The notes below the pieces were generated by a model. That model did not search any database, was not told the DNA's origin, and saw only the letters and a list, made by a program, of their open reading frames with translations. Of a stretch of 38,942 bases of DNA, positions 427 through 38,907 are shown piece by piece. The DNA is from Pigoraptor vietnamica (Eukaryota; Opisthokonta; Filasterea): the NCBI GenBank assembly GCA_943704525.1, contig CALSCQ010002031.1, forward strand, positions 1 through 38,942, in the 5' to 3' direction. Made by a program: the position numbers and the translations under genes. Every line of letters starts with the position of its first letter. Position 1 is the first letter of the stretch.

Positions 427-1110
427 CTCAGTTTCAGGTCGACGCCGGAGTTTGTGAGATAGGGTGGAGGCTACACCCTCTGTTACAGATGTAACAGTGC
501 TGCTGTTTAAACATGGGTGGTGGTTAGGGGCTGTGCGGACTGACATGCAGTGGAGCTGATGGTGGAGCTGATGTTTTTTCGTTTTAACGCCAACTCTGAA
601 GAATGGACGGGTGCACTCTCGACGGCACAACCTCAGCGGCTGTAAACAACTGAGGCGCGTTTGCTAGTCTGACGAGGGTTTGTGTTATAATACTTTGTGT
701 GTGTATGTATGCTTGTGTTTGCTGCTTTTTTTGTGCTTACGTGCGCGTGCGTACGAGTCATGTGTGTGTGTGCAAGAAAAACAGTGCTCCCACAACCAGG
801 GCCCCGCCATGCACGGCAAGTGAACGTCGGTGCACTTGCAATGAAGGGCACGCAGTCTATTGAATGGAAAACGCAAACGCGCGCAACGACGCGCACGCAA
901 TGGGGAAAGCGCAAAGAGAGCGTGGAGAGAAGGCGCACCGACGAGACCCTCTCGAGTCAACTCGTCCGGCGCTCATGCAGACGCACAAACAAACAGACGC
1001 CTTCGTAACATAGCGCCGTCGGGTCCAACAAAGCCACGAGACGGAAGGCGACCAAGCGCGCTCGCAATCGCTCTTGCACTAGTGCCGCACCGAGGGACGT
1101 CGAGCGCCGC
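427..1110. other. Intergenic flank downstream of integrin beta
   Basis: No supported gene. It holds an 18-base inverted repeat at 480-497 (CTGTTACA, two bases, TGTAACAG), short GT-rich tracts near 690-775, and presumably the 3' untranslated region of the minus-strand integrin beta gene. Open frames here have no recognisable domains and are read as noise. Confidence 0.6.
480..497. repeat. Inverted repeat CTGTTACA-GA-TGTAACAG
   Basis: Perfect 8-base arms around a 2-base centre. The half-site TGTAACA/TGTTACA recurs in several other intergenic regions of this window (15906, 28852, 36177 to 36240), so it may be a transcription-factor site rather than a terminator hairpin. Function is unknown. Confidence 0.6.
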
Positions 1111-3596
1111 TCACATTGTGAAGAGGTTGTCGTTGGCGAACATGATGTCGGCGGCCGCGGCCATCTCGTCCTGCTGCTGTTGCCGGAGCGGGTTCATCTC
1201 CATCGCCGTCGTGCGACCCGCCGCCGTCTCCTCCTCCGCGCGCTTCTTCCCCTGCGCCTTTTGACGCTTCTCCTCCTCCTTCTTGCGGTTTTTCGCGTTC
1301 TTCTTGGCGTCTTCTTCGTCCTGTTTGCGCTTCCGCTCCGCAGCCTCAATCACGGGCACGCGCACGCCCTCCGTCTTCTTCGCCGCGTAGTACGTCGTCG
1401 TGAACTGCGCCGCTGCCGCTGCCTCCTCGCTCCGCTTCTTCGCCTCCCAGTCCTTCGCGAGCGCCGCGTTCACGCCAACTTCCAGGCACTTGAACTCGAA
1501 CCGCTCCCACTCTTCCTTGTCGAGGTAGTACACAAACACGCGCCACAACAAGACAATAATGATGCCCGCGCCGATGCAGCAAGCAAACGATATGCCGATC
1601 GCGGGACCAGGCCTGCCAAGGGTAGGGAGGATGTCAGTATATGCGTGTGAATGCGGAGGTGTGTGCGCGTTTGCGTGAATGCACGTGTGTCGTAGCGGAA
1701 ACGAATGACTACGGAACGGGGCATTGCATACGCACTTCGTCTTATCCTTGCTGACGTCCGCATACGCCGTCTGCCCAACCGTTGTCCCGGCAGTGTACTG
1801 AAAGTACACGTCGTGGGGGCAGCCCTGTGCGCACCGGCACGCAGTCTGCGTCGCCAGCGTAATGGGCGCCCGGCACGTGGCCACAATGCTGTTGGGCAGA
1901 CAGGCCTGGACGTCGCTGCACCAGTGGCACGCCGTCCCGTTCAAAAACGCCACGCACGACGCACAGTCCGTCTGGAACGACTCGCACGTCGACTTGCCAT
2001 ACGGGCACGAAGGGTCCGTGGGATCGCACCGCGCGCAGCCCTCCCCGAACCACGGCGCCTTGCACTGGCACTTGCCGCACACGCATTCGGCGCGGCCGCC
2101 ATACGCCGCGTTGCAGTCCACGTCGCATTGCTTGAACGTTTCGCAGCCGCAATCGGCGCCGTCGAAGCCGGCGTAGCAGCGGCACTTCCCGCACACGCAG
2201 AGGCCGTTGCCGCTGCACTGCTTTCCGTTGGCGTCCGCCATGCAGGGGCTCGTCGGGCAGTCGCAAAACTGAGTCATGACGCGGCCTTCGTTGATCTGAA
2301 ACGTCCACCCGTCGTCGCACTTGCACCGGCCGTACCCCTCGCACGTGCCATGGCCACTGCATGGCACGCTGGCGCCCGTCGAGCACGAGCTGCTCGCGGT
2401 ATACTGCAGCGGGACGTTAACAGTCAGCAGGAGCACAACGACGAGTCTCTCACACATATGCAGGAGCGCTCACGCACGCGCACACGCACGCACACATGCC
2501 TCCCACAGCACATACCTGGCACTCGGTGCCGTCGTAGCCGGCAATGCAGTTTGTGCAGCGGCCGCAGTCGCATGTTCCTCGCCCGTTGCAGTCCTTCGGA
2601 CACGACAGCCCCGAGCAGCTCTCGCACGAGTACGTGTAGCCCTTGGTGACAGTGATGGTGAACGTGCCGGGATGTCCTGCCATGACGAGTGACACGGGGT
2701 CGGTAACCATCACGTGCGCGGGCGCGACGAGTGTAACAGCCACGGCTACGGTGGAGGTCCGCTTGGTCCCGGTCGCGTCAAGGAGGGACGCGACACGCGG
2801 ATTGATGCTGCGGTTCGGTGTGCGCGTGCGTGCGTAAGTAAAGCGTGTCCGAGCAGAGAGTAATGTTGCCGACGACGATGCATGTCACGCTACGAGTTGT
2901 TGGCACCACAGCAACACATGAAGAGCCGCGGAAGACGCACGGAAGACGCACGCACACACCTCGTGACCGACACCGTCGTCGTCTGCTTGGGGTCGGGATA
3001 GAGCTGCACCGTGTTGGCGATGCGTTTGAGGGCAAAATCGACCTCTGTCACAATGTCGCTGAAGTCGTCATTGAGGCCCATCTGCCAAAGTGACGTCACT
3101 GTGTGTCAGTGGCGCAACAACCACACGGACGCTTTTCGTTCTCGCGCACCTAGGGCCAGACTCGCACGCGCAATCACAGGCAGACAGCCCCACTCACAAA
3201 CACTTCACATTCGATCCAACTCTGATGCATGCATGAGCCCCCACACACACACACACGCACCGAAAAGCCCCTCCCTATCCGCCCGGACAGGCCCGTCGCC
3301 TCGCCATACGCCCAGTTGAGATTTGCAGACGAGCGCGCAAAGCCAAACACCGGCACAATGGCCGACTGGCGGTAGAAGCTGCTCAACATCTCAACGCTTG
3401 GATAGTCGCGATCAACAATGTTGGCGACATTGCCGGACAGGGCGCACTTGTCGTTCGCCGGGGCTTCGATGCCAGCGCGCAGCTGCGCAGATGGGGCACG
3501 CGGGCTGTGGATGAGACTAATGCGCACGGTGCTCCTCTGAATATCAGACGTCTGACGCGAAATTTGAGAGAGGTGACTGGTTGTGTGCGTGCGTGC

Positions 3597-3654
<58 letters not shown>

Positions 3655-4023
3655 GGTGTGCATGCACGCGAGCGATCACAACCGCACAGGGAGCCCTCTG
3701 AACCCACCCCATCCATGGCCACGTGATATCCGGCGTTTGTAAGAACAAACAGCTGCGCGTGAATTTCGACAATCAGCACTCAGGCCCAAATCGTCCAAGA
3801 CAGAGGCACACTCGGGCGCAAATTGTCTTTTGGGCTGAGGCACACTCGGGGCGTATATTCACATGTGGCACACACGGAACCGCGCGTATTCACACTGCAC
3901 GCATGAGAGATGCGGGACCAGCTAAAATCACAGACATGAGTCCATCCACAAACGCAAGGAAGACCTCAGTCGTGGCCGTCATAGGATCTCCCCCCCCCCC
4001 CCCCCCGCAATCGACTCTATCGT

Positions 4024-4054
<31 letters not shown>

Positions 4055-4182
4055 TAGAGAGAGAGATGCGCAACTCACCACGCGTCGGCTGTTTGACCGC
4101 CACTGAATGGCAGTGTCACACTGCACCACCTGGAGCATTGCGTCGAGGCCCGCCTACGGAGAGAGGGATTGCCTTAACGTCA

Positions 4183-4249
<67 letters not shown>

Positions 4250-5624
4250 CACACACAACACACACACACACACAAAACACACGTACACAGGGGACGCTGC
4301 GCACTCACGTGAGGGACGTCGTAGTCTCCGATCGGCCGCATGGCGCCCAACGCCGTCGCCCACGCCGTCTTGTCGCTCGTTAGGGGCACGTCGTTCTGGA
4401 ACATGTACGTCTTCTGCGCGCTGTCGCCGTTCGGCCACTCGTACGACGGGTCCGCGAAGGGCGCGATCGGCTTCTCCACAAAAGATCCGAGCCCGATCTG
4501 CACCGTGCCGTTCGTCGCGCTAGAGTTGAAGACGGCCGTGGCAATCGCACCCGCAAGCGAGCGGAGAGTGAACAGCTGGTTCGTCATTGCAGCCGTGCGG
4601 TCCACGAGGAAATACACGTCGACGTCAACGACGAGGCGGGGCGACACGTTCACCACGACCGTGCGCGGAATGCCTGCGTTACCCGCGCGTCAAACAAAGC
4701 AAAGGCGCCTTGAAATGGCGGGGGGCGTCGCTCAAAGCGAGCGCGCACATGCAACACGGCGCGCACCGACAAACAAATGGAATCGACTGCACGAGAATAT
4801 CTCACGGGAAAACGGAGAAAACCACGCACGCACCCCTTTCGCTATGAGAAAAACGGGCGCGCACACATGACTCCAGACAGAAGGCACACGCACCCTTTCG
4901 AAGGTTCATGGTCGCGGCCTTAGGGTCGAAAAGCGGGAGCACGGGGAGCCCAAACTGCGTGTCGTTCGTCCCCGCGGTGACGGCCGTAGTGCCGGTGGGA
5001 TACTTCCACCCATAGCCACAGAAGGTCGCCTCCGTCAGAGGCACGCACGACGACCACGACTGCGGAGACGACGGATCGGTTGTGGGCTTGTCAAAACATG
5101 CTGGGCGAATGCCGTTCCCGCGAACGCAACTCGACACATGGCACTCATGCACACACTCGCACACACGCAACGCACGTTAGACACCCATTAGTGAGTCGCA
5201 CCTCACACCAGCCGCATGTCGTTGTCTGACGGAGACAAGCATTGCATGTTTGAAGGTCCCATCGCGAGCAGTCTTCGCTCTGCGCTGCCACCAGAGACAC
5301 TGTGGCACACATTTGCGGCGATTAGCCATTCGTAGCCAATTCTACCACGTTCAATTGCCTCTCCACAACAAGCACACGCGCGCGCCCTTCCACTCTCTTC
5401 AATTGCCTCACACAACAACACACACACACACGCCCTTCCGCTCTATTGCTGTCTCGGACAAGGCATTGCTGTCTCGGACAAGTACAAAACAAACTGTCGC
5501 TCATACGCCCACAATCTGCTCAACAGAGGCGCATCGCAAGCCACACACACGCACCGCTCCCAAAGACTGCAATCAAGGCGACGATCGTCCTAATGGACGC
5601 GCTCGTTCGCGCGACGCGCGCCAT
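1111..5624 (-). CDS. Integrin beta subunit, divergent, 11 exons
   Basis: Single-pass adhesion receptor chain expected to pair with an integrin alpha. Exons on the minus strand: 5624-5555, 5299-5202, 5143-4894, 4673-4309, 4153-4079, 3752-3708, 3551-3261, 3081-2960, 2807-2516, 2403-1736, 1612-1111. They sum to 2778 nt, closing at 925 residues. The 3551 acceptor could instead be 3536. Order: signal peptide (MARVARTSASIRTIVALIAV), PSI-like domain with TCNACL and CGWC, I-like (beta-A) domain from about residue 155 with VDVYFLVD and IGLGSFVEK, at least four cysteine-rich I-EGF modules (CSGHGTC, CSGNGLCVCGKC), beta-tail-like cysteines, membrane span about 763-785, and a 140-residue tail. The I-like domain has T, A, H and N at four of the five MIDAS positions and N, Q at the ADMIDAS aspartates. 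The specificity-loop disulfide is absent. The tail keeps a membrane-proximal D..EW..F pattern, has no NPxY, and ends in a Lys/Glu/Ala-rich stretch. The start codon has a good context (gccgccATGG). Integrin beta identity is firm; the distal partner is inferred. Confidence 0.9.
3599..3651. repeat. (TG)n tract in integrin beta intron
   Basis: A TG run of about 50 bases lies in the intron between the 45-nt exon (3708-3752) and the exon at 3261-3551. Confidence 0.95.
3990..4066. repeat. Poly-C run followed by (GA)n in integrin beta intron
   Basis: A 17-base C run at 3990-4006, then a GA-rich stretch at about 4025-4066 that ends just short of the donor site at 4078. On the sense strand the intron therefore begins with a CT-rich segment directly after the donor. 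Confidence 0.95.
4184..4277. repeat. (CA)n tract in integrin beta intron
   Basis: A CA tract of about 90 bases with small interruptions fills most of the 154-nt intron at 4154-4308. On the sense strand it is TG-rich and lies 25 bases upstream of the acceptor. Confidence 0.95.
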
Positions 5625-6554
5625 GGCGGCGCTGACTTTTGCGGTTTTCTGTGTGTGCGATCACACTTCCATCGGCGACATTCAAACTTCGACCAAAACG
5701 CACACCACAAACGAACCAGTATTGCGATTTGCTGTGTTGAGACGTATGCGTCTATCACGGGGGAGAAATAAGGGTCCGCGAGTTGTGCTTGGGAGAGTGC
5801 GGAGGGTATATGTGCGTGGAGTGCGTGTGCGCGGAGATGTGGGGCATCCCTTGCACGCGCCGCGCCAAAAAAGCCATCGCACAACAATTGGTCGGGAGTG
5901 TGCGGGATGCATTTTCTACTTATTTGATACCAAAGAATAAACGACTAATGTATTACTAAAGCAATATTTTCATGGTTCTCATAATATGCATTATTCATCA
6001 TAATAAAGTATAATTGTACTATTTATCTTCTGAAAATAATTTACATAAACACGCTCCGCTCGGGATGATGATCCTCTGTTAATCATCCGTGGACACTTTT
6101 ATTCAATACAAACTTCATATATTTTAATAATCAAATAAATTCAGCGAGCCCGGTACACCCAAAGGTCCCCACCCTCTCAATAGCCACTGTTTACCCCCCT
6201 CTTTGTCCCCGTGCCTGCTCTGTCTCACACACGCACGCACACACACGCTACCACACACACACTGTCTCTCTCTCTCTTTCGCTTCCCTCTCGCACACTTA
6301 CCTTTGCCGTGTCCCCTCACTGCCAACCTCTCTTCTAAGAACACCACAATCTCCTTTATCTCTGTTGCTGGCGCGCTTTTCGGAGTGCGCGCGCGTGTCG
6401 ACTGTACAGCTCCTTTTTTTTTCCCCGCACACTATGTGGGCCCTCAGCAATTGAGTTTTCTTCGCATACGGACGTCCGCTTTGTCCCATCGGGCGGGATT
6501 CGCCCTCCCTTCATTTTGTTGTGAACATCAGCGCCGTCGTGCGCGCAGAGTGGG
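5625..6554. promoter_or_regulatory. Divergent intergenic region between integrin beta and alpha
   Basis: The start codons of the two integrin genes face away from each other across 930 bases, so this segment must hold both promoters. It contains an inverted CCAAT box (ATTGG at 5887-5891), a sharply AT-rich island at about 5930-6150, a CA-rich and CT-rich stretch at 6220-6300, and a pyrimidine run near 6410-6425 on the alpha side. No convincing TATA box position could be fixed. No gene is supported: the plus-strand frame starting near 5593 with a signal-like sequence is antisense to integrin beta exon 1. That the region is co-regulatory is inferred from geometry only. Confidence 0.6.
5930..6150. 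other. AT-rich island in divergent integrin promoter region
   Basis: About 220 bases rich in TAATA, ATTATT and AATAAA words stand out against GC-rich surroundings. It begins about 310 bases upstream of the integrin beta start and ends about 400 bases upstream of the integrin alpha start. It may be a nucleosome-poor promoter element or an old insertion. Nothing coding is seen in it. Confidence 0.7.
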
Positions 6555-9500
6555 ATGGGTAGCGTGCGCACCCTCCGCACGGCACTGTGGCTGGTATTCG
6601 CCGTCGCCGCGTGTTTTCGCGCGTCCTCCGCCACGTCGCCCTACTTTTTCACGGACCCCGAGTTTGTGATCGCGGGGCCTGTGAGTGGATCGGGCGATGA
6701 TTTTGCCAAATCGCTCGTGGCCGTTGAGAGGTCAGTAGCGCACTTTGCGACGGCGCGTTTTTCATTCCCTTTCTTGATGTCTTCCACCCTGGTTCGATAC
6801 CTCTCTCCCACCCCTCTTTTCCTTCACACTCCAAGCACACACACACACACACGCTCCCTTTTTTTTTTAATTTCCCGTCCCTAACTGTGCGTCTGCGCCT
6901 ATTTGCGCAGGACGGGCGACCACGACGACGAAACCAACGCCATGGTCTACGTCGCCGCGCCCCGCGCAAACAACGGCGTCGGCGCACTCTACGCTTACCG
7001 CGTGGAGAACGTCATCTTCACGGCCGCCTCGCGCTTTAGTGCGATGGCCGCGCTGATGCCCAACGCGACGACGGACCTCTATTCCCCCGGCAACGTGACG
7101 ATGCTGGGCGTCGATCTCGTGCCGGGCACGTTCATTCCTGGCGGTCTCAACCAGCACATTCTCACGGGGGCGCCCTTTGTCGCGCGTCACTCGCCCGAAA
7201 ACATTGTCGTGAACGCGACCCGCCTCGGCTACGCGCGCGGCACGTGCATGTACCTCAGCAGCGGAGCCGCTCCGCCCGTTCCGCCGGTCGCAGCCGCCAG
7301 CAGTGCGGCGCAGTCGTCGTCGGCGGCCGCCGCTACGCCGTCGTCCACTGCGCAGGCCTCGTCCACGTGGGCCTCGGTGTCTTCGTCGTCGTTCACCGCC
7401 ACCATGTCCGCAACGGCATCTTCTGCGAGTGCCTCCGCCACCACCACCGGCGTCGCCCAGCCACCGCCGTTTGAGTGGGCGGTCCTCTCGTGCCCCGTAA
7501 CGACCCCTTCGGACGCGATCATGCAGGGCGACGTGTACGCCTTCCGCGCTGATCAGTACATTGGCTTCTCGAACGGCGGATCGTTCTTTGCGCCGTCGTC
7601 GTCCGTGTCGCTGTGCCGCAGCGTCCCAGGTGCCGTCGCACCGCTCACGGACTGCAACGCGCAGCTCGGCGCGTCGACAACCAAGGGCCGCCTGCGCGCA
7701 CGCGTGGACGCTTCGGACGCCGTCGACATTGTTGCGGGCGCGCCGCTTGCGGAGGCGGCGATTGCGTACTCGCTCCCCTCTGGATCCTACCCCGGATGGA
7801 CGGCTGCGATTCGGCCGTCGAGTGCCGGCGACGGCCCTCAGTACTTTGGGACGTCGGTTGCGTCGGGCGCTTCGATTGACGGGGACGGGCTGGACGGTGT
7901 GTGCGTGTGGAACTGTTTTCTTGTTTTGCGTCACCGTGTTGGGCGTTGCAGGGCGCTGAGGCGCGTTGTCTCGCTGTCGCTGACGCTCTTCTTGTTGTGC
8001 TCTGCGCAGACGTCGTGGTCGGGTCTCCCCGCGCCACTGATGAAGGCTCGATGGTGGCTTACGCGGGGTCGATTACAGGATATTCCCGTGGGTACCCTTG
8101 TCCAATTTCATGTGCTCGCGCGCACTACACACACATGCGCGTCAATGGCACCCCTGTCTCGCGGTCGCACTGCACACACGTGCGCGTAGCACCCCCTTGA
8201 GCGCTGCTTGATTTGGGGCGTGAACTTGCACAAACGCTTGGCTGACAAGCGCCTGTTACTCATGTTATGTGCAGTGTCCCCGAACCCCACGGAGATTTTC
8301 CGCGCATACGGCACGCAATCCGGCGCCTATTTTGGCTGGAAGGTCCTCTTGAGCGACGTGCTTGCGACGGACGCCGACTTCAGCGCGCGGTGAGTGCATC
8401 TCTATTTTTCAGCGTCGTGTGGCCACAACACTGGACCGTCGCCATATCCCAATATCTTTTTTTTCTAATCTCTGATTGTGGGCACTTTTATCTTTGCTGC
8501 TGTGAGGATCCCATGCTCACGAACGCCGTGCGTCCTTCTTTATAGCCTTGCGGACGTGGTCGTATCCGCGCCCCTCGAGTCCGTGTCGCTGACACCGGGC
8601 GCCGCGCCCTCCCCGGATGTCGGATGCATCTACGTCTTCCTCGGATCCGGCGTCAAGTCAGGCCCCTTTGTCCCGTACGCCCACCGCATCTGCGGCACCG
8701 TTGCCGGCGGTCGCTTTGGCTATTCGCTCGCGTCTCTCGGTGACGTCGATCTCGACGGCCTCATGGGTGCGTGCAGAGCGCACTCGGCTGTTGTATGTTT
8801 CTCTCACGTGTGTATGTTTCTGTGGGCACGCGCGTGTCCTGTCATTTGTGCTGTTATGCCACGTGCGTTTTGCTCTAATGCGCCTCGCGCGTTCAGACTT
8901 TGCCGTCGGCGCGCCGTTCTCGAGCAACTCGAACGGCGACATGAACGCGGGCTGCGTGCACGTGTTCTTCGGCCGCAAGGGTACGCTTCCGTCCACCGCC
9001 GACCAGGTCATTTGCGGTGCTGTGGCGCAGGCGCGGTACGGCCTCTCTATGGGCGGCGGTATCGACCTCACCAAGATGGACGGCTTTGACAAGGCGTACA
9101 ACGGTGCGTGTCTAGACTGGCGTCGCCTGTCCTTGTATTGCTTGGGAACGTCGCTTGTTGTTATATGTTGCAATTTCCCCATTTGTTCTTAAAAAAATGC
9201 GCGCTTTCTTTTTTCTGCCCCCAGATCTAATTGTTGGCAGTGTCGGCGAGCGCAAAGTCCGCGTGTTCCGCGCAAAGGCCGTGGCGAAGCTCAGCGTCGC
9301 TGCGTCGGCAGACACCGTTTCGTACGTCTGGGACGGACGCTTCCCCAAGTTCACGTTCACGGTGTCCAACGAGGGCCCTTCTGCGGCGACGCGCGTTATT
9401 GTCGATTACACGGCGCGCTACACGTGCGGCGACCAGAGTGGCGTGTGCCGTCCAGAGTCGGGCACGCTTGCGCTTCCCACCATTGACGTCGGAGGGTCCA

Positions 9501-12259
9501 AATCGGCCTCTACTCTGCTGACGCGAGCGTATAATTCGACGTGCTGCGACCTCGTCCTGACGGCGACGCTGAGCGATCGCAACGCAGGCGCGGAGATGGT
9601 CATCTCGCGCGATTCGCGGACGACGCTCACGCCTCCCCTGCGCCTGGCGGGTTGCGTCAATACGACGCTGTCGCCCGTGTCCGCGTGCTCGGTCGCCGAG
9701 CTCTCGCTCAGGGACTTTGTCATGCGCCCTGCACCGGCCATTCTTGGGCAGCCCGTCGTCGTCGCCGGCACCGTCTCTCTCGACTCGTGGCGCGGCATTG
9801 GCGATTCAATCGGTCGCGTGCACGTGTCGCTCAAGGTGCCGGCGGGCGCCACCGTCAAGACGGACGCGAGCACGAACGTCGACTGCCGCGTCGCGAGTCC
9901 CTCGGTGCCTTCGTCGTCGTCTGACAACGTTGGCGTGGGAGCCGGCGTCGTGGCCATCGACTGCTACCTCCAATCTGAGCCAGGACCCGCGCGCCGCCTG
10001 CACCCCTTTGAGGTGTCGCTGGACACGTCCCGTGTGGACCTCGTGTCGAAGGCGATCGCCGTCTCTGCCACGCTGATTGCGAACATACGGGAGACTCGCC
10101 TCGACGACAATGTCGGTTCGGCTTCTGTCGACGTCGCTCCGGCGAAGGTGGTTCTCACGAGCGCGCCCTCCGCGTCGCGCGTCGTCGGCAGCTACCCCTT
10201 CTCGTTTGTCGCGATCGCGCTGAACAAGGGCGGGCGCGGCGCGTTTGGAATGGGCGTGTCGCTCGTGTTTCCCGTCTTGGACGCCTACGTCGGCGCTATT
10301 GCCGTGGATGGCGGCTCGTGCGGCGACATGTCTTCCGGCGGTGTGCTAGTGTGCACCGCGGACGTAATTCCTCCCGGCGGTGCGCTGACCGTGCGCGTGT
10401 CTGGCGTGCCGCGCGGCGTCTCTGACAAGGACGGCGCGATTTCCATGACTGCGTCCATCTCGAGCGATCGCGAGGGGTCGGCAGATCCTACGGCGGCGTC
10501 GTCGTTGACGTCACTGAGGCGAACTCTGCCCAAGTCGGCCTACACGACTCCGCGTCAGACGGACGACAGTGACGTTGGGTGGGCTTTGTTTATCGGCGTG
10601 TTCTGCGGCCTCATTTTTCTGGTCCTATTCTTCGCGGGCCTCTACTATCTCGGGCTGCTGCACCGCCGCCCTTCGCCGCCCTGGGAGATGCTCTTCACGC
10701 CGGAAGAGCGCGCCAAGGACGAGGAGAAGCGGCGCAAGAAGGAGGAGGCGAGACTTGCCGCCAAGCTGGCCGAGGAGGAGCGCAAGGCGGAGCTGCTTGC
10801 GCGGAAGCGGCGCGGGTCCGACACGGACTACGGACGTGGCGTCGGGGATATCACCGTGTCCGCCGCCGAGATCGCGATGGAACCCGGCACGCTCCAGCGC
10901 CGGTTCTCGATCGGCGCGCTCCCCTCCGCCGTCATGCGCTCGCAGGAGGAGCACGAGGAGAAGAAAATGCGCCGCGCGTCGTCGGTGCCGGATTTCATTG
11001 CGCTGTTTGTGCCGCCCCCGCCGAAAGGCAAGGAGAGGGCCAAGGAACCGGAGGCCAAGCAGACCAAGGCCGCCCCGCACGTGTACGAGGACGTCGGCCC
11101 GTCGTCGACGCCCAAGGCCGCGCCGAAGGTCCACGTCTACGAGGACATTGGGCCGACGCCCGCAAAGGCGCCACCCGTGTACGAGGAAGTCGGGCCAGTG
11201 ATCGCTGCGGCAGCGGGGATAGCGGTGTCTCCGTCGGCCGCCAAGTCGCCCAAGAAGACTGTTGCGTTCAAAGGCACCATCAAGGACGACCCAAACAAGA
11301 AGCAGTTCCCGAAGGAGGGCAAGGAATCTGCGCCGCCGCCAATGACAGAGTCGCCGTCCGGCAGCGGCAGCGGCAGCGGCAGCGACGAGGAGGATGAGGG
11401 CCGCCGCCTCCCCACGGGGGCCGTTGACGTGGCGTTGGCCTTGCGCGTCAAGGCCGAGGAGATGTCTGGTACGCGCGAGCGCGTGGACACGAACGAGTTT
11501 GGGACGGTTGCGCGCGCTGCCGTCGCCGACTTCCGAAAGTCGATGGCTGCGCTCGAATCGCTCGATGGTGTCCTGACGGAGACGCTAGACGCGTCCGGTT
11601 CTTCTGCGCCGTCGACGCTTTCGAAGGCGCCCGCGGAGGTCTCCGCCGTGTCTGCCGCGGCACTGAGCGAGAAGCTGGAGAAGGAGAGCGCGCAACAGAA
11701 GGCGGCGTCGACGATGTACGCCACGCCCATCAAGCACAAGGGAGGAGACCACGCGTACGAGGAGCTCGATCCCTTGCCCGCACCTTCTGGCTATGCCCAG
11801 GTCGTCTTTGATAAGACGAAGGAGGGCTCGTCGTCGCCCGCACCCGCGCCAAAGGCGGATGCTGCGCCACTGCCACCGCCGCCCGCACCTAAAGTTGAAG
11901 AGCCGGCCGCTCCCCCGCCCCCTCCCCCGGCGCCCAAGATGGAAGAGCCTGTTGCAGCGCCTCCGCCTCCTCCACCCGCACCCAAAGTGGAGGAGCCGGT
12001 CGCTGCTCCCCCTCCCCCTCCCCCGGCGCCCAAGATGGAAGAGCCGGCCGCGGCGCCGCCTCCACCACCGCCCGCGCCTCCCGCTGCTGGTCCCCCTCCG
12101 CCACCAGCGCCGCCCGTTGCCGCTGGACCGCCGCCTCCCCCGGCACCTCCCGCTGCGGGTCCCCCTCCGCCTCCCCCGGCACCTCCTGCTGCTGGACCTC
12201 CGCCGCCCCCCGCGCCACCGGCCGCTGGACCGCCGCCTCCCCCGCCGCCGCCCATGTGA
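6555..12259 (+). CDS. Integrin alpha subunit with giant cytoplasmic tail
   Basis: Single-pass adhesion receptor chain. Exons: 6555-6730, 6911-7896, 8010-8087, 8275-8389, 8546-8766, 8897-9103, 9225-12259 (4818 nt, 1605 residues). Signal peptide about residues 1-26. FG-GAP propeller repeats follow with cation loops DGDGLDDVVVG (382-392) and DVDLDGLMDFAVGAP (518-532), plus less canonical loops such as DLTKMDGF near 585. A Ser/Ala/Thr-rich, mucin-like insertion covers about 183-240. After the propeller come beta-sandwich leg regions (about 610-1030), then a membrane span at about 1045-1072. The juxtamembrane GFFKR is degenerate (LGLLHRR). The tail of about 530 residues has a Lys/Glu-rich start, three VYE[D/E][V/I]GP motifs (Y1215, Y1233, Y1247), a related AYEELDP (Y1439), and a proline-rich end (about 1473-1605) of PAPK[V/M]EEP and AGPPPPPAPP repeats. 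Metazoan alpha tails are usually only tens of residues. The neighbour integrin beta is the natural partner. Family assignment is firm; tail function is inferred. Confidence 0.92.
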
Positions 12260-12839: not shown

Positions 12840-13589
12840 CCGGGGGTTCTCAAGTGGCGGAAAACGCGAAGGTGCGTTGGCCGGGAACGTCCTTTACGGG
12901 CTTTGAAAATTCTGTGCATGATAGTGCGTGGTCCATAGTGTCGCGGGCCGCTTATCTCTGTCGGTGAATCTGTGTACTGATGAGCCCGGCCGGGGCTGTC
13001 GTGAGCGGGCTGCTCGAAACTGATTCAATTTTCTCCGTACGCCGCAGCGGGCTCCCGTAAGCTAAACTCGACGTGGGTTTCATAAAACAGGCCGCGACGG
13101 CCTCCGAGAACGAACTGTTGGTTGATTTGGTGAGTCCCTGAAACTGAAGCAGCCCCGCGCGGGCCGGCCGTGGGCCACCGGCGCCGCATGTCGACTGTGG
13201 GCTGCATATAAAAATTTCTTAATTACTGCAATCAGTTTGCACGGCTCCTGGGAGCGTCTGTGCACGTGTGTCGTAATGCGTTCCAAAGTTACTTCCGGCG
13301 GCATGAATGATGTCGTAAGTTTGTGTGCATGCTTCTTGCCGGCCCCGGCCCGGCGCATGCAGCTGCAGGACATGTTATCTGAATTCTAACTTACTCCGCT
13401 TCATTTGCCGTAGGTCTCCGGACTGCTTTGACCTTATGACGACGTCATTGCCGACTAAGGGGAGGAGACCGGCTCTTCTCGCTAGCGGCGCGCTGCGCGA
13501 CACGACGTGTAATGCTGCGTGACACATGAACCGACGTTTGTTGCGCGGGCACTAATAGGCCCAGTGCGGGCCGTTGGCCTCCGTGAGAG

Positions 13590-13594
13590 CCAAT
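13590..13594 (+). promoter_or_regulatory. CCAAT box upstream of GT49 gene
   Basis: GAGCCAATCAGCG matches the NF-Y consensus core (CCAATCA/G) and lies 49 bases before the first in-frame ATG. NF-Y binding to such boxes is established knowledge; its use here is inference. Confidence 0.45.
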
Positions 13595-13642
13595 CAGCGC
13601 CTGTCCTCGGCTGCCCTACAGTCCAGCGCGGAACGCGGACGG

Positions 13643-15638
13643 ATGGAATCGTGTCTCTGTGCCAGCATGGCACGCGCAGTGGCCGTGCGCGCCCTCAGGC
13701 TCCACGTGCAGGCGATCAAGATCTTCGTCGCGATCATCGCGCTCGGGCTCGTGCTCTTCTTCTACTCTGCGTCCCGCGAAGCCTCCGTGTCCACGCGCAT
13801 CACAATCTACCAGTTCTCGACAGCCATGCGACACCGCGCGCACGCCGCTGGCGGCACCGCGGTGATATCTCGGGACCCTTCTGCTGAAGCGTTGAACCAC
13901 GGCGAAGGGCAGAGCAGGATGGCGTCCGTCTCCGTGCGCCAGAACGACATGCCCGCCGTGTTGCCAGAGTCTACGGTCGTGCGTGTCGTCGAGGCCTTGA
14001 CGCACGTGCCCGTCTCCCCCTTTGAAGAGCGAGACACGGCAAAGCTGCCGCACCAAGCAGTGTGGCAGTCGATCGCCGACGCTTTTCGGACTGCGCCACC
14101 CCCGGGCCTTCCAGCAGTTGCCAGCGACGCCGTTGCATCAAACGATACGTCGGGCGTGGTCCCGGGATGGAACGGCCCTCACCCCCCTCCCCCGCGACTG
14201 CGTCTTTCGATTACAGAGCTCGCAAACGGCCTCACGCTCCTGCCGGACGACGTCGTCTTGTGTCTGTCGGCGACGGTCGACATGATCGACTCGATGGCGC
14301 GGGTGCGGGCGGGGTGGAACGGACCCGCCGCGCTCGGCATCTTCTGCACGCACCAGACGTGCGTGGACGAGGTGTACGCCAACTTGCTGCATCTCGCTGG
14401 CCGCGTGCGCAACACGGCCGTCGTCGTCGTGCTCGCCGACCCGAGCGTGCTCTATCCCATCAATGCGATGCGCAACATCGTCGCCGACTACGTCCCCGCT
14501 GGACGGGGGTACGGCGTGCTGTGGCTGGACTCCGACATGCTCCTTTCCGACGGCTCGTATGAGGTCATTCGCCGCGCGTACGTCGAAGGTCGCGCCGCCA
14601 ACGCCGTGGAGAGGCGCCTGCTGGTGATCCCCTGTTTTGAGTTCGGGACGAACTCGTACGACATTGACCACGCGAACCCCGACACGATACCGCGGAACAT
14701 GCTTGCGCTTATTCGCCTGGCGCGACAGGGCCTTCTGCGGCCATCCAAGATGCGGTACTACCCGCAGGGGCACAGGTGTGTTGGGGGCGCACTGCAGTTG
14801 CATCGCACGCTGAACTGACGAGCGCCGTGTGCCCGGCCGTCTGTGTCAGAAGCTGGTTCCCTCTGCATTCACCCTCTCGCCACGTTCACTCACCATCATT
14901 CCTTGTGTTCGTCGCGCTTGCAGTTGCACCGAGTATCGCCGGTGGGTTTTCGGCGACGACAAAGTGCCGTGGAAGCAGTCCACGTACAACTGGGAGTACG
15001 AGCCATTCTTCGTCGTTAACAAGACGGACGATCTGCCCGGTCTCGACGAATCGTACAGCTTTTGGGGCGGCGACAAGCAGTCCATGTGCCTGCTCCTCTA
15101 CTCGACCGGGTATCGCTTCTACACGGTACCGATGGTCTTCAGCGTGCACATGGCGCATCCCGACCGACGCAAGACGGCGACGGCCGCAGGCGAGGCGCAG
15201 ATCATCGCGAATCGTCGCATGTTCGCCGACTTCCGCCGAGAGGTCGCGCACCGCTACAAGATCGACGTCGACAGCCTCGCGTTCAAGCGCGTGGGCTTCC
15301 CCAAGTACACCATCCCGGAACGGCTGCGTGCTGTGGGAAGTGGCGTCCCACTCCGCGTCCGAGAAGCGCACAAGCCACAGTACTTGCAGCCCTCCGCCAA
15401 TGGCGCGGACGCACCGCAGGGGAACGAGTCGAGAGAGGGTGTGATGCCAATCACACTGAAGCGACGCCAGCGCGTGACAGGAGATGATGCGCGCGAAGGA
15501 TCTGCGGCGGACATTGGGCGCATCCCTCGTCGGCGCCTTGCTCGGCCTCCGCCTGCCGGGGTTGAGCCCGATCCCCCTCGAGATCTCGTGCACGTGCCTG
15601 CAGCGCACGACCCGGCTGAGGGAAAGAAGGAGCCGTGA
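13643..15638 (+). CDS. Type II membrane glycosyltransferase, GT49 (LARGE/B4GAT1-like)
   Basis: Exons 13643-14775 and 14924-15638, 615 residues. The start is the first ATG of the frame; a second ATG at 13667 has a slightly better context and would lose eight residues. A short basic N-terminus precedes a signal anchor at about residues 24-44, as in Golgi enzymes. A DxD-type motif, LWLDSDM (D296, D298), fits the metal-nucleotide-sugar site. After it come the family-like blocks YEPFFVV, DESYSFWGGDK and FSVHMAH, which resemble the acceptor half of GT49 proteins (WEP, YG.dk, H..H). In animals GT49 domains build the xylose-glucuronate chains on dystroglycan. The C-terminal 150 residues are basic, Pro-rich and not recognisable. 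It lies downstream of integrin alpha on the same strand. The GT49 call rests on remembered motif patterns; the acceptor here is unknown. Confidence 0.7.
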
Positions 15639-16205
15639 GGCTCGCGAAAACGCGGGAGCGCTATGTGATGGAATGAATAACCAACTGAATCTGACACGCT
15701 GATTAGAGTACCAGACAGTTCCGCTCCGTCGGCTGTGGACGCTTTTGGCCAATTCGTATTCGCTAAAGCATTTAGTTGACCCACGAGCTCGATGTGATAT
15801 GGCGACCCTGCAGAGCCTTGAAAGCGAGGAGGACACGCACAGGCACACGCGCACACAGTAAATGAGGACGGAGGACGCGGCACACACACACACACACTCT
15901 GCAAGTGTAACAGTGTCCCGAGGGTCCGATGGCTCGGGTTGTCACGTGACTTGCGCTTTCGGATTGGGGCAGAGGCGCGCGCTGTGATTGGTCCAAACAG
16001 CGGCAGTAATTTTTCCCTCTGCGTTCGGAGTGTGTCGGAGGCTAAAAATGTGCGCAGACACGCGCCCACACACACTCACACACATACACACGCATACCGC
16101 GCGCCTATTGTGTAACCCTCCCACGCAAGTACTTCTCTCGACCCGCCACCTATTTTTTATTTTTCTCTTTTGGCTTTTGCTTGTGCTTCGTCAGAAAGGC
16201 CAAAG
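15639..16205. promoter_or_regulatory. Intergenic region and presumed promoter of GH28-like gene
   Basis: No gene is supported. CCAAT core words occur at 15749-15753 and, inverted, at 15987-15991 (GTGATTGGTCC). TGTAACA lies at 15906-15912. Short CA tracts are at 15883-15896 and 16069-16090. A pyrimidine-rich run at 16150-16175 lies just before the start codon region, where transcription may begin. Confidence 0.45.
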
Positions 16206-17570
16206 ATGCGTGCCGCAGTGACTTTTGCGTGCGTCATTCTCGCGCTGTGCGCGGCGCACTCGCACGCGGCCGTGAACAACATTCTGGACTATGGCGCCGT
16301 GGCGAACGACGACAGCGATGCCGCGTGCACGGCCAATTCGAACGCGATTCTAAAGGCGCTCCTTGCGGCGAATGCAACCGCACCTTCGGATCCCGTGCGC
16401 GAGGCCCTCGTGCCCGCGGACGCAAAGTTCTGCGTGCGGAACACGACGGCGAGCGGCCTCTTCTCCGTGACGCTGCGCATTGACGGCTACCTCATCCTCT
16501 CCAACAATCGCAAGGCGTGGCCGAAGGACGGCGACGCCGGGTGCGGGCTCGCGGCGATCCAGATTGCCGACACGGTCGGTGTGACGATCACGGGCAACGG
16601 CCTTATCGACGGGCAGGGCTACAACTGGTGGTGGGACACGATTCTCACGGGGACGGACGACCGCCCGTCGCTGATTTGGCTGTACCAGTGCACGGATATT
16701 GTCATGACGGACCTCCGCATGCGCGACTCGCCGCTGTACCACGTCTACATGAACGACATTGTGCGCGCGCACGTGCGGAACGTCGACATTCGCGTCGACG
16801 TCACGAAGCAGAAGGAGCTTCTTGGACAGCACGGCCTCCTCTCGGAGCTCGGCATCCCTACTTTCCCGCTCAACACGGACGGCATCGACCCCGCGGGCAG
16901 CGACGTCCTGATCGAGAACGTGACGATCATCAACTTTGACGACGCCGTCGCCGTCAAGCCGACGCGCGTGGGCCGTCGTTACTCGTCGTGCAGCAGCAAC
17001 ATTACGGTGCGGGACGCGTACGTGGAGTACGGCGTCGGCATGACGATTGGCTCTGTGCCTCCCAACCCCAACGTCAACTGCGTGCGCAACGTGACCTTCG
17101 AGCGCATCCGCTTCAAGAACGCGCTCAAGGCCATCTACGTCAAGTCGAATCCGGGGACGGCGGGGACGGGCATCATCGACAACATCACGTATCGCGACAT
17201 CACGGTCGACGGGAGCCTCTGGTACCCGATCTTCATCGGTCCCCAGCAGCAGAAGCAGCCCCGCACCAACGGCACCGGCTGCTCGTTCCTCTTCCCCGTC
17301 GTCAAGGCGTGTCCCACGCAGCCGCGAGTCGCCATGACGAACATTCGTCTGGAGAACGTGCACATGACAGGCGGCGTCTTCCTTCCTGGCGTGATCCTCT
17401 GCGACCCCGCGCAGCCGTGCTCCGGTTTCGAGTTTTTGAACGTCACAAACACTGGCGAGTTTGTCGTTCAGAAGGACTACTATTGCCAGAACGTCGTGAG
17501 CTCGACGACGTCGAACTCGAAGCCGGCCGTGCCGTGCTTTAGCGAAGTGCCTCCGCCCAGCGACGACTGA
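16206..17570 (+). CDS. Secreted GH28-like (polygalacturonase-family) beta-helix protein
   Basis: Single exon, 454 residues. A clear signal peptide (about 1-20, hydrophobic VTFACVILALCAAHSHA) indicates secretion. The body has the parallel beta-helix pattern of the pectin-lyase-like superfamily, opening with ILDYGAVAND and a GNGLIDGQG turn. GH28 hydrolases cleave alpha-1,4-galacturonan or related polymers using NTD, DD, GHG and RIK motifs. NTDGID (N223-D225) and FDDAVAVK (D245, D246) are present, but the GHG site reads GVGMTIGS (G276-V277-G278) and the RIK site reads YVK (311-313), so the family's histidine and arginine are missing. Several N-x-S/T sequons suit a secreted glycoprotein. The intronless structure contrasts with most neighbours and could reflect retroposition or horizontal transfer. 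Family is confident; pectinolytic activity is doubtful. Confidence 0.85.
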   Translation: MRAAVTFACVILALCAAHSHAAVNNILDYGAVANDDSDAACTANSNAILKALLAANATAPSDPVREALVPADAKFCVRNTTASGLFSVTLRIDGYLILSNNRKAWPKDGDAGCGLAAIQIADTVGVTITGNGLIDGQGYNWWWDTILTGTDDRPSLIWLYQCTDIVMTDLRMRDSPLYHVYMNDIVRAHVRNVDIRVDVTKQKELLGQHGLLSELGIPTFPLNTDGIDPAGSDVLIENVTIINFDDAVAVKPTRVGRRYSSCSSNITVRDAYVEYGVGMTIGSVPPNPNVNCVRNVTFERIRFKNALKAIYVKSNPGTAGTGIIDNITYRDITVDGSLWYPIFIGPQQQKQPRTNGTGCSFLFPVVKACPTQPRVAMTNIRLENVHMTGGVFLPGVILCDPAQPCSGFEFLNVTNTGEFVVQKDYYCQNVVSSTTSNSKPAVPCFSEVPPPSDD

Positions 17571-20296: not shown

Positions 20297-22312
20297 TCAC
20301 GTGGCGATCGCTATGCTTGCGAGCACGTATTCGCTGTTCGGTTCCATCGATCCCTCGATTGCGATGCGCATCGCCGCAACAATCCGGCGGGGCACGTACT
20401 TAGTGACGGCGGTGCCGAGCACTCCAAAGCTCGCCGCACGTTCAAACTGCCTGCCATCGGCCGACACGAGCAGCGACGCACCGCTGATGCGTCCAGTGCT
20501 GGTGCCTGGCTCGCCCGTCTTGACCGTGATCGACGACACGGCGTGCGGCTTCGCGAATGTGAACTGGCAGTATTCGCCCGCCTCGCCGCGCGACAGTCGC
20601 ACGAGTCCGTCGCCGCCGTACATGGCGAGGGGGTCGCCGACGACGACGCCGACGCTGCACGTGGCCGTTGCGATGGGATTTCCGTTGTCGTATGCGGCTG
20701 TGGCCACCTTCACGAGGGAGCCGTCTTGGGCGACCTCCACCTTTGTGGGCGCCTCGACGAACTGCGTCTTGCCGACTAAGGAGCTCTCCTGCGCAAACGG
20801 AAGGTCTGGATGAGGCGAAGCACACGCCACGCGCACACAAGCGTGAATTGCGTCTCTGGTGCCGTCGACCACTGCGAGCAATTTGACCTGCACGTGATCC
20901 GGGTGACGCACCTTGCCGATGTGGTGGAATAGCTTCGGGACGTTTTTGACGTCGTCGAATTGGTAGCGCGTGACCTGCCACAGGTACATGAGGAGGTCGA
21001 CGGGGTGTTGGTTGTAGTACCGCGCCGTGAAGGAGGCAAAGTCGGCGGCGTCGGCGGCACGTAACAGCTTGCCGATAAACCCGTACGGCGAAAATGCGAG
21101 AATGACCCAGTTCCCGTGTGCGTGTTGGCCGACCGTGGAGCTGCGGGGCACGCGAAAGTGGAAGTAGGGCTTAGAGGGCGAAGCCCATTGCAAACAGGTT
21201 GTGTTACAGCGAAGAGGGGTGCTGTTCCAATTATATTCGGCGCCCCGCACGTAGACCCACCTTATCTGCAGCGGCCACCCCCTGTTCGCCAGGACGTCGT
21301 CCTCCATTTGCAGATAGTACTGCGGCGCATGCGTCGCGACGGCGTAATTGACGAGGAGCGCATAGTCCACGCACTGCTTGGACCGCCACTGACGGCGCGG
21401 CAGCGGGTCGTCGTAGTTGGGCGGAAGTGACGCCTCATCGAACTTCGGGTAGAATGAAGGGTGCGCCCGCACAAGGTCCAGCGCGCCCGATGCCACGAGT
21501 GACGGGTACCGCTGTGCAATTTCCGACAGCAGCGCCTGCGTCGACTCTTCGCGCCCGCCGGCATCCGCGACAAAAACCACGACCGAAACAACGCCCTTCT
21601 CAAGCTCGCGGTGCTCGCAGCCCTTCACGAGTGAGTCGAGTGTGGCGAAGAGGTATTCCCTCGTCTTGGTCGGCCGCGTGATTGTGGGCACTCCCACCGT
21701 TATAACCGGCTGTCGCACCCGCGCACGTGAAGTCGCTGTTCGCAGGAAGGCAGTTTTCTCTTCGTATTAGTACGTTACACGGCAAACACAGTCACGAGAT
21801 ACAAGTCGCAGTCATCGAGCACGGTTACGCAGACACGTCAACAGCAGCTGAGGGAAACAAAGGGCGCACCTCGTGTTTGCGAGATGAGAAGGGGTATGTT
21901 CGCCGAGGTGTCACCCCAGGGCAGGGTGGCCGCGAGCCCTTCCTCACGGGCCGCTGCTCGTTTGGCCGGGTGGGACGGCGGCCGTTGCTTGGGTTGCTGC
22001 ATCGACTGAAACATCGACGAAAGCGTTCCTGTCGAAAGAGGAAAGGACCGAGGGAAATATGAGAGAAACTCACGCGGGTAGCGAAGTAAGACAATGTCCT
22101 TTTGACGGGGGGCCTTCCTACGCAGCAGACGTCGGTGGTTCACTGGCTCCAGACTGTGACTGACACGGCTCTGAATGCTGCCGTCGCATCCCCTCACCAT
22201 CGCTGTAGAGAAAGACGAGAAGCAACACGGTCAGCGCAACTGCCGAGAGGGGCAGAAGGCGGCGGTCTCCGCGTGCGCAGCCACGACAGAAGCGAATGCT
22301 GGCCATCATCAT
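20297..22312 (-). CDS. MGAT4-like beta-1,4-GlcNAc transferase (GT54), type II membrane
   Basis: In animals MGAT4 enzymes add a GlcNAc branch to the alpha-1,3 mannose arm of N-glycans in the Golgi. Minus-strand exons 22312-22198, 22028-21870, 21735-20297; 1713 nt, 570 residues. The start is the first of three consecutive ATG codons. The signal anchor (LLPLSAVALTVLLLVFLYS) sits in exon 1 at about residues 17-37. Family blocks are ITVGVPTITRP at the start of the catalytic domain, YYLQMEDDV with the nucleotide-sugar/metal-site acids (E236, D237, D238), FSPYGFIGKLLRAAD and KLFHHIGKVRHP. The C-terminal 130 residues form a beta-sandwich-like module (GEYCQFTFAKP, ISGASLLVSADGRQFE) like the CBM32-type lectin domain of animal MGAT4. 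Two CCAAT words (22326-22330, 22334-22338) lie just upstream of the start. GT54 is well supported; branch specificity is inferred. Confidence 0.86.
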
Positions 22313-36083: not shown

Positions 36084-36447
36084 GGTGACGCACTTTGCGT
36101 GGCCGCAACAACTAAAGATGCGTTGTTGGTTCCGTCATAAGGGGAAAAAAACCTTCGAACTTCGACAGCTGTTGTAGTAACACTTATCCTCCGAGATCTC
36201 GCTTGTTACACTCTTTGTGCGATAACCTCATTGTTACACCACCGTCACGCAACTGACACAGACACACACGCACACACTGACGCACACCCCTCACACACTC
36301 GCTCGCTCGCTCGAACCGTGCTCCAGTGCACATTCATCTCAACGATTTATGGAGAACTTCCCAAATCAAGTGAATCCAACCCCTTCCACTTGCTCCACTT
36401 GCCGACTGTACCTCCGCATCCTCAACAGCCACTCCGTTAACAGGAGG
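36084..36447. promoter_or_regulatory. Divergent promoter region with repeated TGTAACA-type motif
   Basis: Between the UBL4A-like start and the next gene's chosen start. GTAACAC at 36177-36183, TGTTACAC at 36204-36211 and TGTTACACC at 36232-36240 give three copies within 65 bases. A CA-rich stretch follows at 36255-36300. TTAACAG at about 36436-36442 could be a 3' splice site of a leader intron. Confidence 0.5.
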
Positions 36448-38907
36448 ATGGCAAATCGTCATAGCCCCACCTACCCGCGCGGCCTGGCCCCGCACGCCGT
36501 GGTCTTAATGCCCAACGACCACACCGATTCGCGCGAGATGACCCGCGTGCGCGGCGCTGCCACCGCACTGGCAGATCACCTGGGCATTACAAGCAACTTC
36601 ACGGATGCCGCGCCTCACTACGAGAGCGTCGGCTCCACGAGCCTCGGTAAGACGACCACAACGGAAGCCCTAGTCTTTCAGGAGGCAAACAGCCGCTACT
36701 CACACGACAAGGACCTGTTCGAGTTCCAACGCATCGGCAATGCGGACGCTGGTACGCTGGAGGACGTCGTCGAAAATGCACGCCGTGAGGCAAACAGTGC
36801 AGCGCGACGCGACGAATGCGACGCGGACCTGCGTTCGAAACGCCAGACGCACGGTAAAGACTTCGACTTCGGGCCCGGTTACTCGAACCCCCACGGTCAC
36901 GGCGGTTCGACACTCGTGGACGAGACATACGCTTACGAGACGACCCTGTTCTCGGAGCTCAAGACCGTGAGCATGGAAGAGCTGCGAGCGTCGGCCACGG
37001 CGCTCATCAAAATGCCCGGCAGTTCGGCGATGCCAAGCGAGGAGATTGAAACCGTGGCGTCCACGCGGCCCATCAAGGCAGCTATCAGTGCCCTGGAGGG
37101 TGTGGCCGCGGACATCGACGACGTGCTCAACAAGGCCGCTCCCCTTTGTGACGCGACGATCCGCTTCACACCCGAGTGCGAAAACATACGAGAGGGCCGC
37201 CTCAGCCTCTACCGCTTTCACGCGACGCTCCGCAAGAGCGACAACAAGTTGGTGCGGCTGCTCGGCGCGCTGGTCAAGACCATCCGACACGGCGTTCCTA
37301 CGGAGAGCCTCAAGGACTCGTCCGGAGCGGTTTTCGAGGCCGTCGACACCGAGGGATTGCAGGCGAGCAACAGCCGCGAGTACCTCGGCGACGGCACCCG
37401 CAGCCGCCCAGCGGCGGTTGCTCTCTATGTCGACCCCACGCATCTGCGCCCTGACACGTGGGATATCGCCAAGCATGTCGGCATCCTGCGCGATCTGGCG
37501 ACGGATCGCAGCAAGTGCCCGATCCTCATCGTGGTCGCGGTCCTCCAACTGCGCCCCGGGACGCTCACGCCGAAATACGTCGACGAGACGCGAAAGCTGC
37601 TGACGGTACGCATACGCGTGAGAGAGCGAGAGTGTGTGAGGCGTGGCATGTGCGTGTATGCATGTGTGATGCTCATGCAATTGAATGTCTTGCTTCGCCA
37701 TTTACCCACCATCCCTCCCCCCATCCCCCCCACCGACCACACACACACACACATCGTACGCACGCAGAAGTCCTTGCGCGACAACATCGAGGCAGAGATT
37801 CGCGAGAACAACGACGACGAGGACTCCGTTCAGGAGTCCATCAAGGACGCCATGAGCGCCATCCGCGTGTGCCCCATCATCACGTTCAAGACGCCGACCG
37901 TTAAGGACGACTTTGGCACGATGGCCGCGCTTCGCAGCGAAATCGTGCAGGCGATGGTGCGCCGAAGCATCGCGACGACGAGGGCCAATGTGGAGGACGT
38001 CAACAATCTCCTCGCTACGGCTCAGGAGCCGTACGCGACGGGGACTGTGCCGATCGCGGAGATAGAAGCTGTGCGAGCCGTGCGGCAGCACATCGTGGAA
38101 GCCGCCGTCGAAGCCGTCGCAACAGCGGTGGAAGCGAACTGCGCACACATCATTCGCAGTGACGAGGGCAAGTTGGAGAAGCGCCTGGCGGACATACGCA
38201 CCCAGATACAGCGGTTCACCGCGCAGCTCAACGACGCCGCGCGCCCAACGGAGAGTACTACGGCGGTGACAGAGGCGGACGTGCGCAACCACCTGCTCCG
38301 GCGACTCGTTGCGCCGTTGGTGGACATGGTCCCACTGATGCGGCTCGGCACGCCCGCGGAGACTGCGACACGTGGAGTCATCGAGAGGGAGTTCAGTAAC
38401 AGCGGACTCAACCGCAACAACCTTGCGCACCTGCGCGATGCGATTGCGAAGGACGTGAGCGCGATCGCCAGCGCCGTCAGCGGAGACAGCATCAAGTATG
38501 CGCTGCTTTGCGTGTCGCGAGTCGTCATGCAGGAATACGCGGCGGAGTGGCTAAAGGCACCGGCCAGCGGGAGGAAGACCGACTGGCGCGTTCAGCAGAT
38601 GGTCGAAACGCGGCGCGAATGGCAGACGCTCATCGGCCACAGGATCGTGGACGTCGTCAAGGCGACGCTGACGGAAAAGTTTGAGACCGCCATCGACCGC
38701 GTGCTCGAAGCCTTTGGAAGGTACGCTGCCCGACCTGACCCAGCACAGACGCACAGGCGCACAAAACGCACAGACGCACTCACACATGTCAAGATGGCGT
38801 ACCTTGCGCATGCAACCGAGAAGCAGAGCTGCTCACGTGCGCACGCAGTATGCTCGCGTGCCACTGACACGTACATGCCGACCACGCGTTGACACAGGAA
38901 ATATTAG
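36448..38907 (+). CDS. Unrecognised large protein with P-loop-like and DTEG motifs
   Basis: Not assigned to a known family. Exons 36448-37605 and 37768-38720, plus a short terminal exon placed tentatively at 38898-38907 (the frame is also open to 38892). About 706 residues. An in-frame ATG at 36349 would add 33 residues; 36448 is preferred because its context is better and a possible acceptor lies between them. The first third has a Walker A-like GSTSLGKTTTTEALV (G62 to V76), which resembles dynamin-type G1, and far downstream VDTEGL (D300), which resembles the G3 of GBP/atlastin proteins. The beta strand expected before the P-loop is weak. A hydrophobic strand CPILIVVAVLQL follows. The last 350 residues are charged, helix-rich and without membrane spans. 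A divergent large GTPase is the best guess but is weakly supported. Confidence 0.5.

Follow-up and report, generated by a model that had tools for sequence, protein, structure and literature searches.

The window, the whole stretch of 38,942 nucleotides of Pigoraptor vietnamica DNA that we analysed (contig C829 in our numbering), carries an integrin beta gene and an integrin alpha gene arranged head-to-head. The beta gene (1111..5624, minus strand) has 11 exons and encodes 900 amino acids in a GT-AG splice model made by eye; exons 1–6 lie at 5555-5624, 5165-5299, 4894-5100, 4309-4673, 4079-4153 and 3708-3752, and exons 7–11 at 3261-3482, 2960-3081, 2516-2807, 1736-2403 and 1111-1612. The alpha gene (6555..12259, plus strand) encodes 1605 amino acids in seven exons, at 6555-6730, 6911-7896, 8010-8087, 8275-8389, 8546-8766, 8897-9103 and 9225-12259 (stop included). 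Both coding sequences, 2703 bases for beta and 4818 for alpha with stops included, are readable without an internal stop. The ends of the beta exons were set by eye at GT/AG with frame and homology as the criteria, so the GT-AG introns and the open frame are partly there by construction; the junction between exons 2 and 3, which has several options, is the least certain. The GC content of the beta coding sequence is 0.55, 0.52 and 0.81 at the three codon positions as against 0.56 in introns, and the third-position value lies below the 0.92 of a second beta gene on contig C661.

Judged from its sequence, the beta chain is a full-length integrin beta by descent and architecture. It aligns to human beta-3 from the PSI domain to the membrane-proximal tail (HMMER, E 5.8e-49, residues 16-774), and the order of parts is collinear: PSI, hybrid, EGF repeats, transmembrane segment and membrane-proximal LDKEEWERFE. 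EGF_2 is above the Pfam cut-off, and the PSI and hybrid domains are recognized by alignment only. A sequence-only reading of this DNA had proposed an integrin beta I-like domain at 4079-4673. Indeed, the domain matches PF00362 (E 2.2e-40; score 139.4 bits, where 24.8 is the cut-off), the proposed span corresponds to two minus-strand exons (4309-4673 and 4079-4153), and the small exon that the same reading placed at 3708-3752 is present in our model. Exon 4 (4309..4673, minus strand) encodes the first half of the I-like domain, including H259 (4309-4311) and the altered metal-binding loop, which spans D162 (4600-4602) to Q170 (4576-4578). Exon 5 (4079..4153, minus strand; AGLDAMLQVVQC...SRRV) runs on from H259, and exon 6 (3708..3752, minus strand), only 45 bases long, encodes LFVLTNAGYHVAMDG with N290 at 3735-3737.

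The head has lost residues at its metal sites. The MIDAS loop reads D162-R-T164-A-A166, H259 stands at the Glu of PEGG and N290 at the Asp of TTDA. Two of the five MIDAS side-chain ligands (D, S/T, S, E, D) are therefore kept, D162 and T164, and the other three are replaced by A166, H259 and N290. The ADMIDAS aspartate pair has become N169/Q170. The SyMBS is mostly retained, with the Glu of FVEKP (as in beta-6 and the paralogue on contig C373) and Asp217 in place; it shows Asp for Asn215 and His for Glu220, and may still be able to hold a cation. Our assignment of residues to these sites mostly follows beta-3 structures. The altered residues align to DLSYSMKDD, PEGG and TTDA of beta-3 with well-matched flanks, and at this level the losses are certain. 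MIDAS, ADMIDAS and SyMBS are the three sites named in the text available of PMC1538996.

The MIDAS and ADMIDAS substitutions listed in the sequence-only reading reappear in the HMMER alignment, at residue numbers two lower in the present model. Its wider statement that most of the MIDAS is lost holds for A166, H259 and N290 and goes too far for T164, which is conservative: the paralogues on C661 and C928 also read DVTGS. The missing specificity-loop cysteines, which it had counted as a peculiarity, are no such thing, because all three paralogues also have no cysteine in the loop. The residues themselves lend good support to its proposal about Mg2+ in the form that this head is unlikely to bind the ion as integrins usually do. 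Of the five MIDAS ligands three are replaced, both aspartates of the ADMIDAS are gone, and scanning the minus strand over 1001-6554 for motifs gave no plausible alternative exon that would restore the acidic residues. As the same reading suggested, such a head may bind ligand by another mechanism, or may act in assembly or signalling only.

The same genome retains canonical beta chains. Searched with the PF00362 profile, the whole genome (32.5 Mb in 1395 contigs) yields six matches at four loci: the window, C661, C928 and C373. The C373 match alone is below the Pfam cut-off, and its exons read as a beta chain. The chains on C661 and C928 have the motifs DVTGSMRDD, NIDYPE and TDADPH, and that on C373, spliced by eye, has DFSGSMGDD, NNDWAE and TDADYH. 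Thus the search for a second beta gene that keeps its MIDAS, which had been suggested beforehand, finds three, and all three keep the ADMIDAS as well.

We aligned the window beta chain with those on C661, C928 and C373 and with human beta-3 and beta-6. Among the other five sequences 44 columns are invariant; the window chain deviates at 18 of these, two of them as gaps. The 18 comprise 6 of the 8 columns at metal sites and 12 of the remaining 36, for which a Fisher test devised after the data had been seen gives a one-sided p = 0.039; if Asp for Asn215 is scored as kept, the metal-site count falls to 5 of 8 and p rises to 0.13. That losses are commoner at metal columns than elsewhere is only suggested by these aligned residues. 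Over 256 columns the window chain is 27–33% identical to each of the other five, and a FastTree analysis of the same columns gives it the longest of the six branches. The tree joins it with human beta-3 and beta-6 (support 0.88), apart from the paralogues. This grouping is possibly long-branch attraction, but the window pair may instead be old.

The tails of both chains, which the sequence-only reading missed, are unusual too. In the beta gene, exon 11 (1111..1612, minus strand) encodes the transmembrane helix, LDKEEWERFE and the entire 137-residue tail, which begins at about 1524. The paralogue tails are short and each carries two NPxY motifs (NPLY/NPLY on C661, NPLY/NPLY on C928, NPLY/NPIY on C373). 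By contrast, NPxY/F is absent from the whole window tail, where NPLR is the only related motif; the chain keeps its membrane-proximal LDKEEWERFE and then runs into charged sequence. No Pfam family matches the tail at E up to 0.1. An AlphaFold2 prediction of exon 11 alone, run from the single sequence (mean pLDDT 66.7), makes the ER/K-rich stretch helical, with block pLDDT values of 85, 93 and 90 and then 76 at the end. We considered a heptad coiled coil for the charged stretches and dropped it, as a strong a/d pattern is absent; we prefer an ER/K-type helix. This ER/K reading, like the SH2-docking and polyproline readings below, draws on composition and on short, generally known motifs.

The alpha partner has diverged in a similar way. 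Integrin alpha chains have a seven-bladed FG-GAP propeller; here FG-GAP is above the Pfam cut-off (E 1.1e-8), and residues 366-620 align to alpha-5 (E 4.9e-19) and 359-618 to alpha-V (E 1.4e-18), with the N-terminal part outside both alignments. The cytoplasmic tail (10652..12259, plus strand) is 535 residues long, counted from GLLHRR, and includes a charged K/E/R stretch. The membrane-proximal sequence is GLLHRRPSPPWE, which retains the Gly and the Arg of GFFKR; the window chain reads GLLHR where three other complete alpha-like tails have an exact GFFKR. Further along, the tail carries the repeats VYEDVGP, VYEDIGP and VYEEVGP and the related AYEELDP; it also has 12 stretches of at least three consecutive prolines. 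Proline codons in its last part are varied (CCA 8, CCG 26, CCC 23, CCT 19), which argues against recent expansion of a simple repeat. Derivation of the tail from another gene was considered and rejected: its 334-residue middle part matches only itself in the genome.

At least four other alpha-like genes are present: one linked to the beta gene on C661, two on C928 and one on C1022. Counting the window gene there are five, which is a lower bound because the genome FG-GAP search (11 matches) missed the window alpha. Among the other four, only that on C1022 has an FG-GAP match and the remaining three were recognized by eye. The C928 chains have no FG-GAP match in the frames scanned against Pfam, where three frames gave a DUF11 match, a sub-threshold PLAT match and nothing, respectively. 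Complete readable tails, short and with GFFKR, are found for the two C928 genes and for C1022; the C661-linked gene is cut by the contig end. FG-GAP matches on C584 and C547 were rejected as alpha chains from their sequence, which we recognized as GPI-phospholipase-D-like.

Some features of these other alpha-like genes are worth recording in their own right. On C928 two alpha-like genes (L022, C928:20001-30000, and L023, C928:29001-38571), both with short tails and GFFKR, flank one beta gene, apparently and by eye one head-to-head and the other converging on the end of the beta gene. The C928- and C661-linked genes seem to have a long cysteine-bearing segment in common (L022 5680-7479 and L018 833-1921, both minus strand). 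It was not seen in the window alpha, and the PLAT match in the C928 copy is below cut-off.

The usual integrin machinery looks present in this genome, as talin, vinculin and SH2 matches are all found. Talin_middle has one genome match (E 4e-48). The vinculin profile has six, at two strong loci (C606 and C1369) and, weakly, on C232, the contig with talin. SH2 domains are matched in 27 stretches, which count exons and not genes. The Kindlin_2_N profile had no match, and its controls were equally silent.

Milder precedents for such changes exist in zebrafish beta1-3 and in human beta-4 and beta-8, the latter two of which, unlike the window beta, keep a MIDAS. Outside the integrin subunits, the A1 domain of von Willebrand factor, also of the A type, binds protein with no metal at a MIDAS; it has no partner alpha chain. 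In the text available of PMC6450878, human beta-4 and beta-8 have tails without the conserved NPxY/F and recruit no talin in an assay in which Capsaspora beta tails do; like the window chain, beta-4 also has a long tail, in its case an extraordinarily long one. Zebrafish beta1-3 is, as far as the accessible part of PMC1538996 goes, a divergent paralogue with both ADMIDAS aspartates replaced and with intact paralogues alongside. The likeness ends at the MIDAS, whose residues are kept there and in the truncated zebrafish beta1 paralogues; the latter have no membrane segment or tail, whereas the window chain has both. Coral AmItgbeta2 has EDL in place of DDL (PMC2397394, in the part available). 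Head-to-head alpha/beta pairs, four in Capsaspora and one in Corallochytrium, are reported in the available text of PMC5560861, where the arrangement is read as of likely holozoan origin; the window pair resembles them in gene arrangement, the one feature compared. An integrin chain that has lost MIDAS, ADMIDAS and NPxY together does not appear in the available parts of PMC1538996, PMC6450878 or PMC2397394. Nor is such a combined loss described among the literature matches listed, seen as titles and abstract starts; a mention in protist integrin papers of 2010 and 2021 is possible. Relative to canonical beta chains—human beta-3 and beta-6 and the paralogues on C661, C928 and C373—the window chain shares the I-like domain and EGF region, and with beta-3 the domain order. 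It departs from them at three MIDAS residues (Ser, Glu and Asp) and at both aspartates of the ADMIDAS, lacks NPxY and has a long charged tail.

Several explanations could account for these losses. An error in the gene model, with other exons or splice sites restoring the acidic residues, is very improbable. The gene does contain small exons, and two candidate motifs lie outside the modelled exons on the minus strand of 1001-6554: DFSWS, which fits DxSxS, at 3929 and SDA at 4732. However, both are out of order, DFSWS following the PEGG exon and SDA preceding the MIDAS exon; neither has integrin-like flanks, PExx(F/L/Y)(D/E)A does not occur on that strand of the interval, and H259 and N290 sit in exons that align well elsewhere. 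Relaxed constraint is a more serious rival, though still an unlikely one: the gene pair would be unneeded and in early decay, its key residues going. The long branch, the changes at 12 of 36 non-metal invariant columns, a metal-site enrichment that is not robust (p = 0.039 or 0.13, depending on one residue) and a third-position GC below that of the C661 gene (0.81 against 0.92) would all fit. Against this, both coding sequences are free of stops and have GT-AG introns, though with hand-picked exon ends; GC is strongly biased at third positions, the beta chain retains its EGF region, its transmembrane segment and the WERFE motif, and the alpha tail uses a variety of proline codons. Moreover, the two long tails are explained less well by decay than by a switch of mechanism.

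The two remaining rivals both grant the pair a function, and we consider each of them improbable, the second by a trifle more. The beta chain could be a decoy: by tying up alpha subunits in heterodimers that are inactive, it would tune the canonical integrins in a dominant-negative manner. The missing NPxY suits this role, and zebrafish beta1-3, with its ADMIDAS DD changed to SN, has been suggested as a possible dominant-negative (PMC1538996, in the part available). A linked alpha gene of its own, with a tail that has diverged just as far, would be superfluous for a decoy, and long tails on both chains suggest a gained function. Alternatively, the metal site could have been rebuilt, so that D162, T164, H259 and N290 hold a softer ion such as Zn2+, or the SyMBS Ca2+ takes over ligand contact, and binding stays metal-dependent. 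All four residues are possible metal ligands and the SyMBS acids are mostly retained; on the other side, the two acids of the ADMIDAS have gone, as have Ser and Glu of the MIDAS, and we know of no precedent for a D/T/H/N ligand set at these positions.

We prefer the reading that an intact-looking alpha/beta pair has been uncoupled from the metal-dependent head and the talin-binding tail alike, and we give it a little short of an even chance of being right. The head metal site, the beta NPxY and the Phe residues of GFFKR are all altered in one linked pair, which fits a pair changed as a unit better than a change of the head alone; three beta and three alpha-like paralogues keep the respective features. 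On this uncoupling account the head fold would be kept, and probably also the alpha partner and the structural SyMBS calcium. A ligand, if there is one, would be held without the usual MIDAS metal for an acidic residue. Talin switching and anchoring are probably absent from a beta chain without NPxY. In integrin structures the Arg of GFFKR and an Asp of the beta chain form a membrane clasp; with Gly and Arg kept in GLLHR and Asp kept in LDKEEW, the inner clasp of this pair may persist. Both chains extend past the membrane as charged stretches, and the alpha tail offers, besides FH1-like polyproline, tyrosines whose surroundings (YEDV/YEDI/YEEV) resemble Src-type SH2 sites. As a working picture, we think it likeliest that the two chains, presumably expressed, form a constitutive pair, a receptor or scaffold acting beside three canonical integrin beta chains, with signalling or actin contact made through SH2- or actin-linked partners of the alpha tail.

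A more detailed version is correspondingly more doubtful, and we advance it only tentatively. The pair would be a membrane-held heterodimer independent of metal and talin, in which alpha and not beta carries the effector: helical levers on both chains, tandem tyrosines for docking of Src-type SH2 domains, and FH1-like polyproline possibly engaging actin-assembly factors directly. If this version is true, the cell would have two ways of building an integrin, this one and the canonical one. Integrin function is commonly held to centre on the metal at the MIDAS and on the binding of talin. In a protist that also has canonical paralogues, a heterodimer apparently lacking both would be a case in which nature has parted assembly from adhesion and activation. 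Such a heterodimer makes the function of an integrin pair without metal or talin testable.

Other genes were noted in passing. Open frames at L019 (C661:14139-16711, minus strand), which shares its contig with the C661 integrin pair, suggest a SAM/PDZ-like protein; it has repeated YSxP-type motifs and is a possible tyrosine-kinase substrate. In the window, an 888-residue open frame at 36226-38892 (plus strand) has no Pfam match at E 0.001, and a glycosyl hydrolase family 28 (polygalacturonase-like) gene occupies one open frame at 16116-17570 (plus strand). An MGAT4-like glycosyltransferase is encoded in one open frame at 20297-21766 (minus strand), and at 13559-15638 (plus strand) a pair of neighbouring open frames corresponds to two parts of Glyco_transf_49, a family that Pfam associates with dystroglycan glycosylation.
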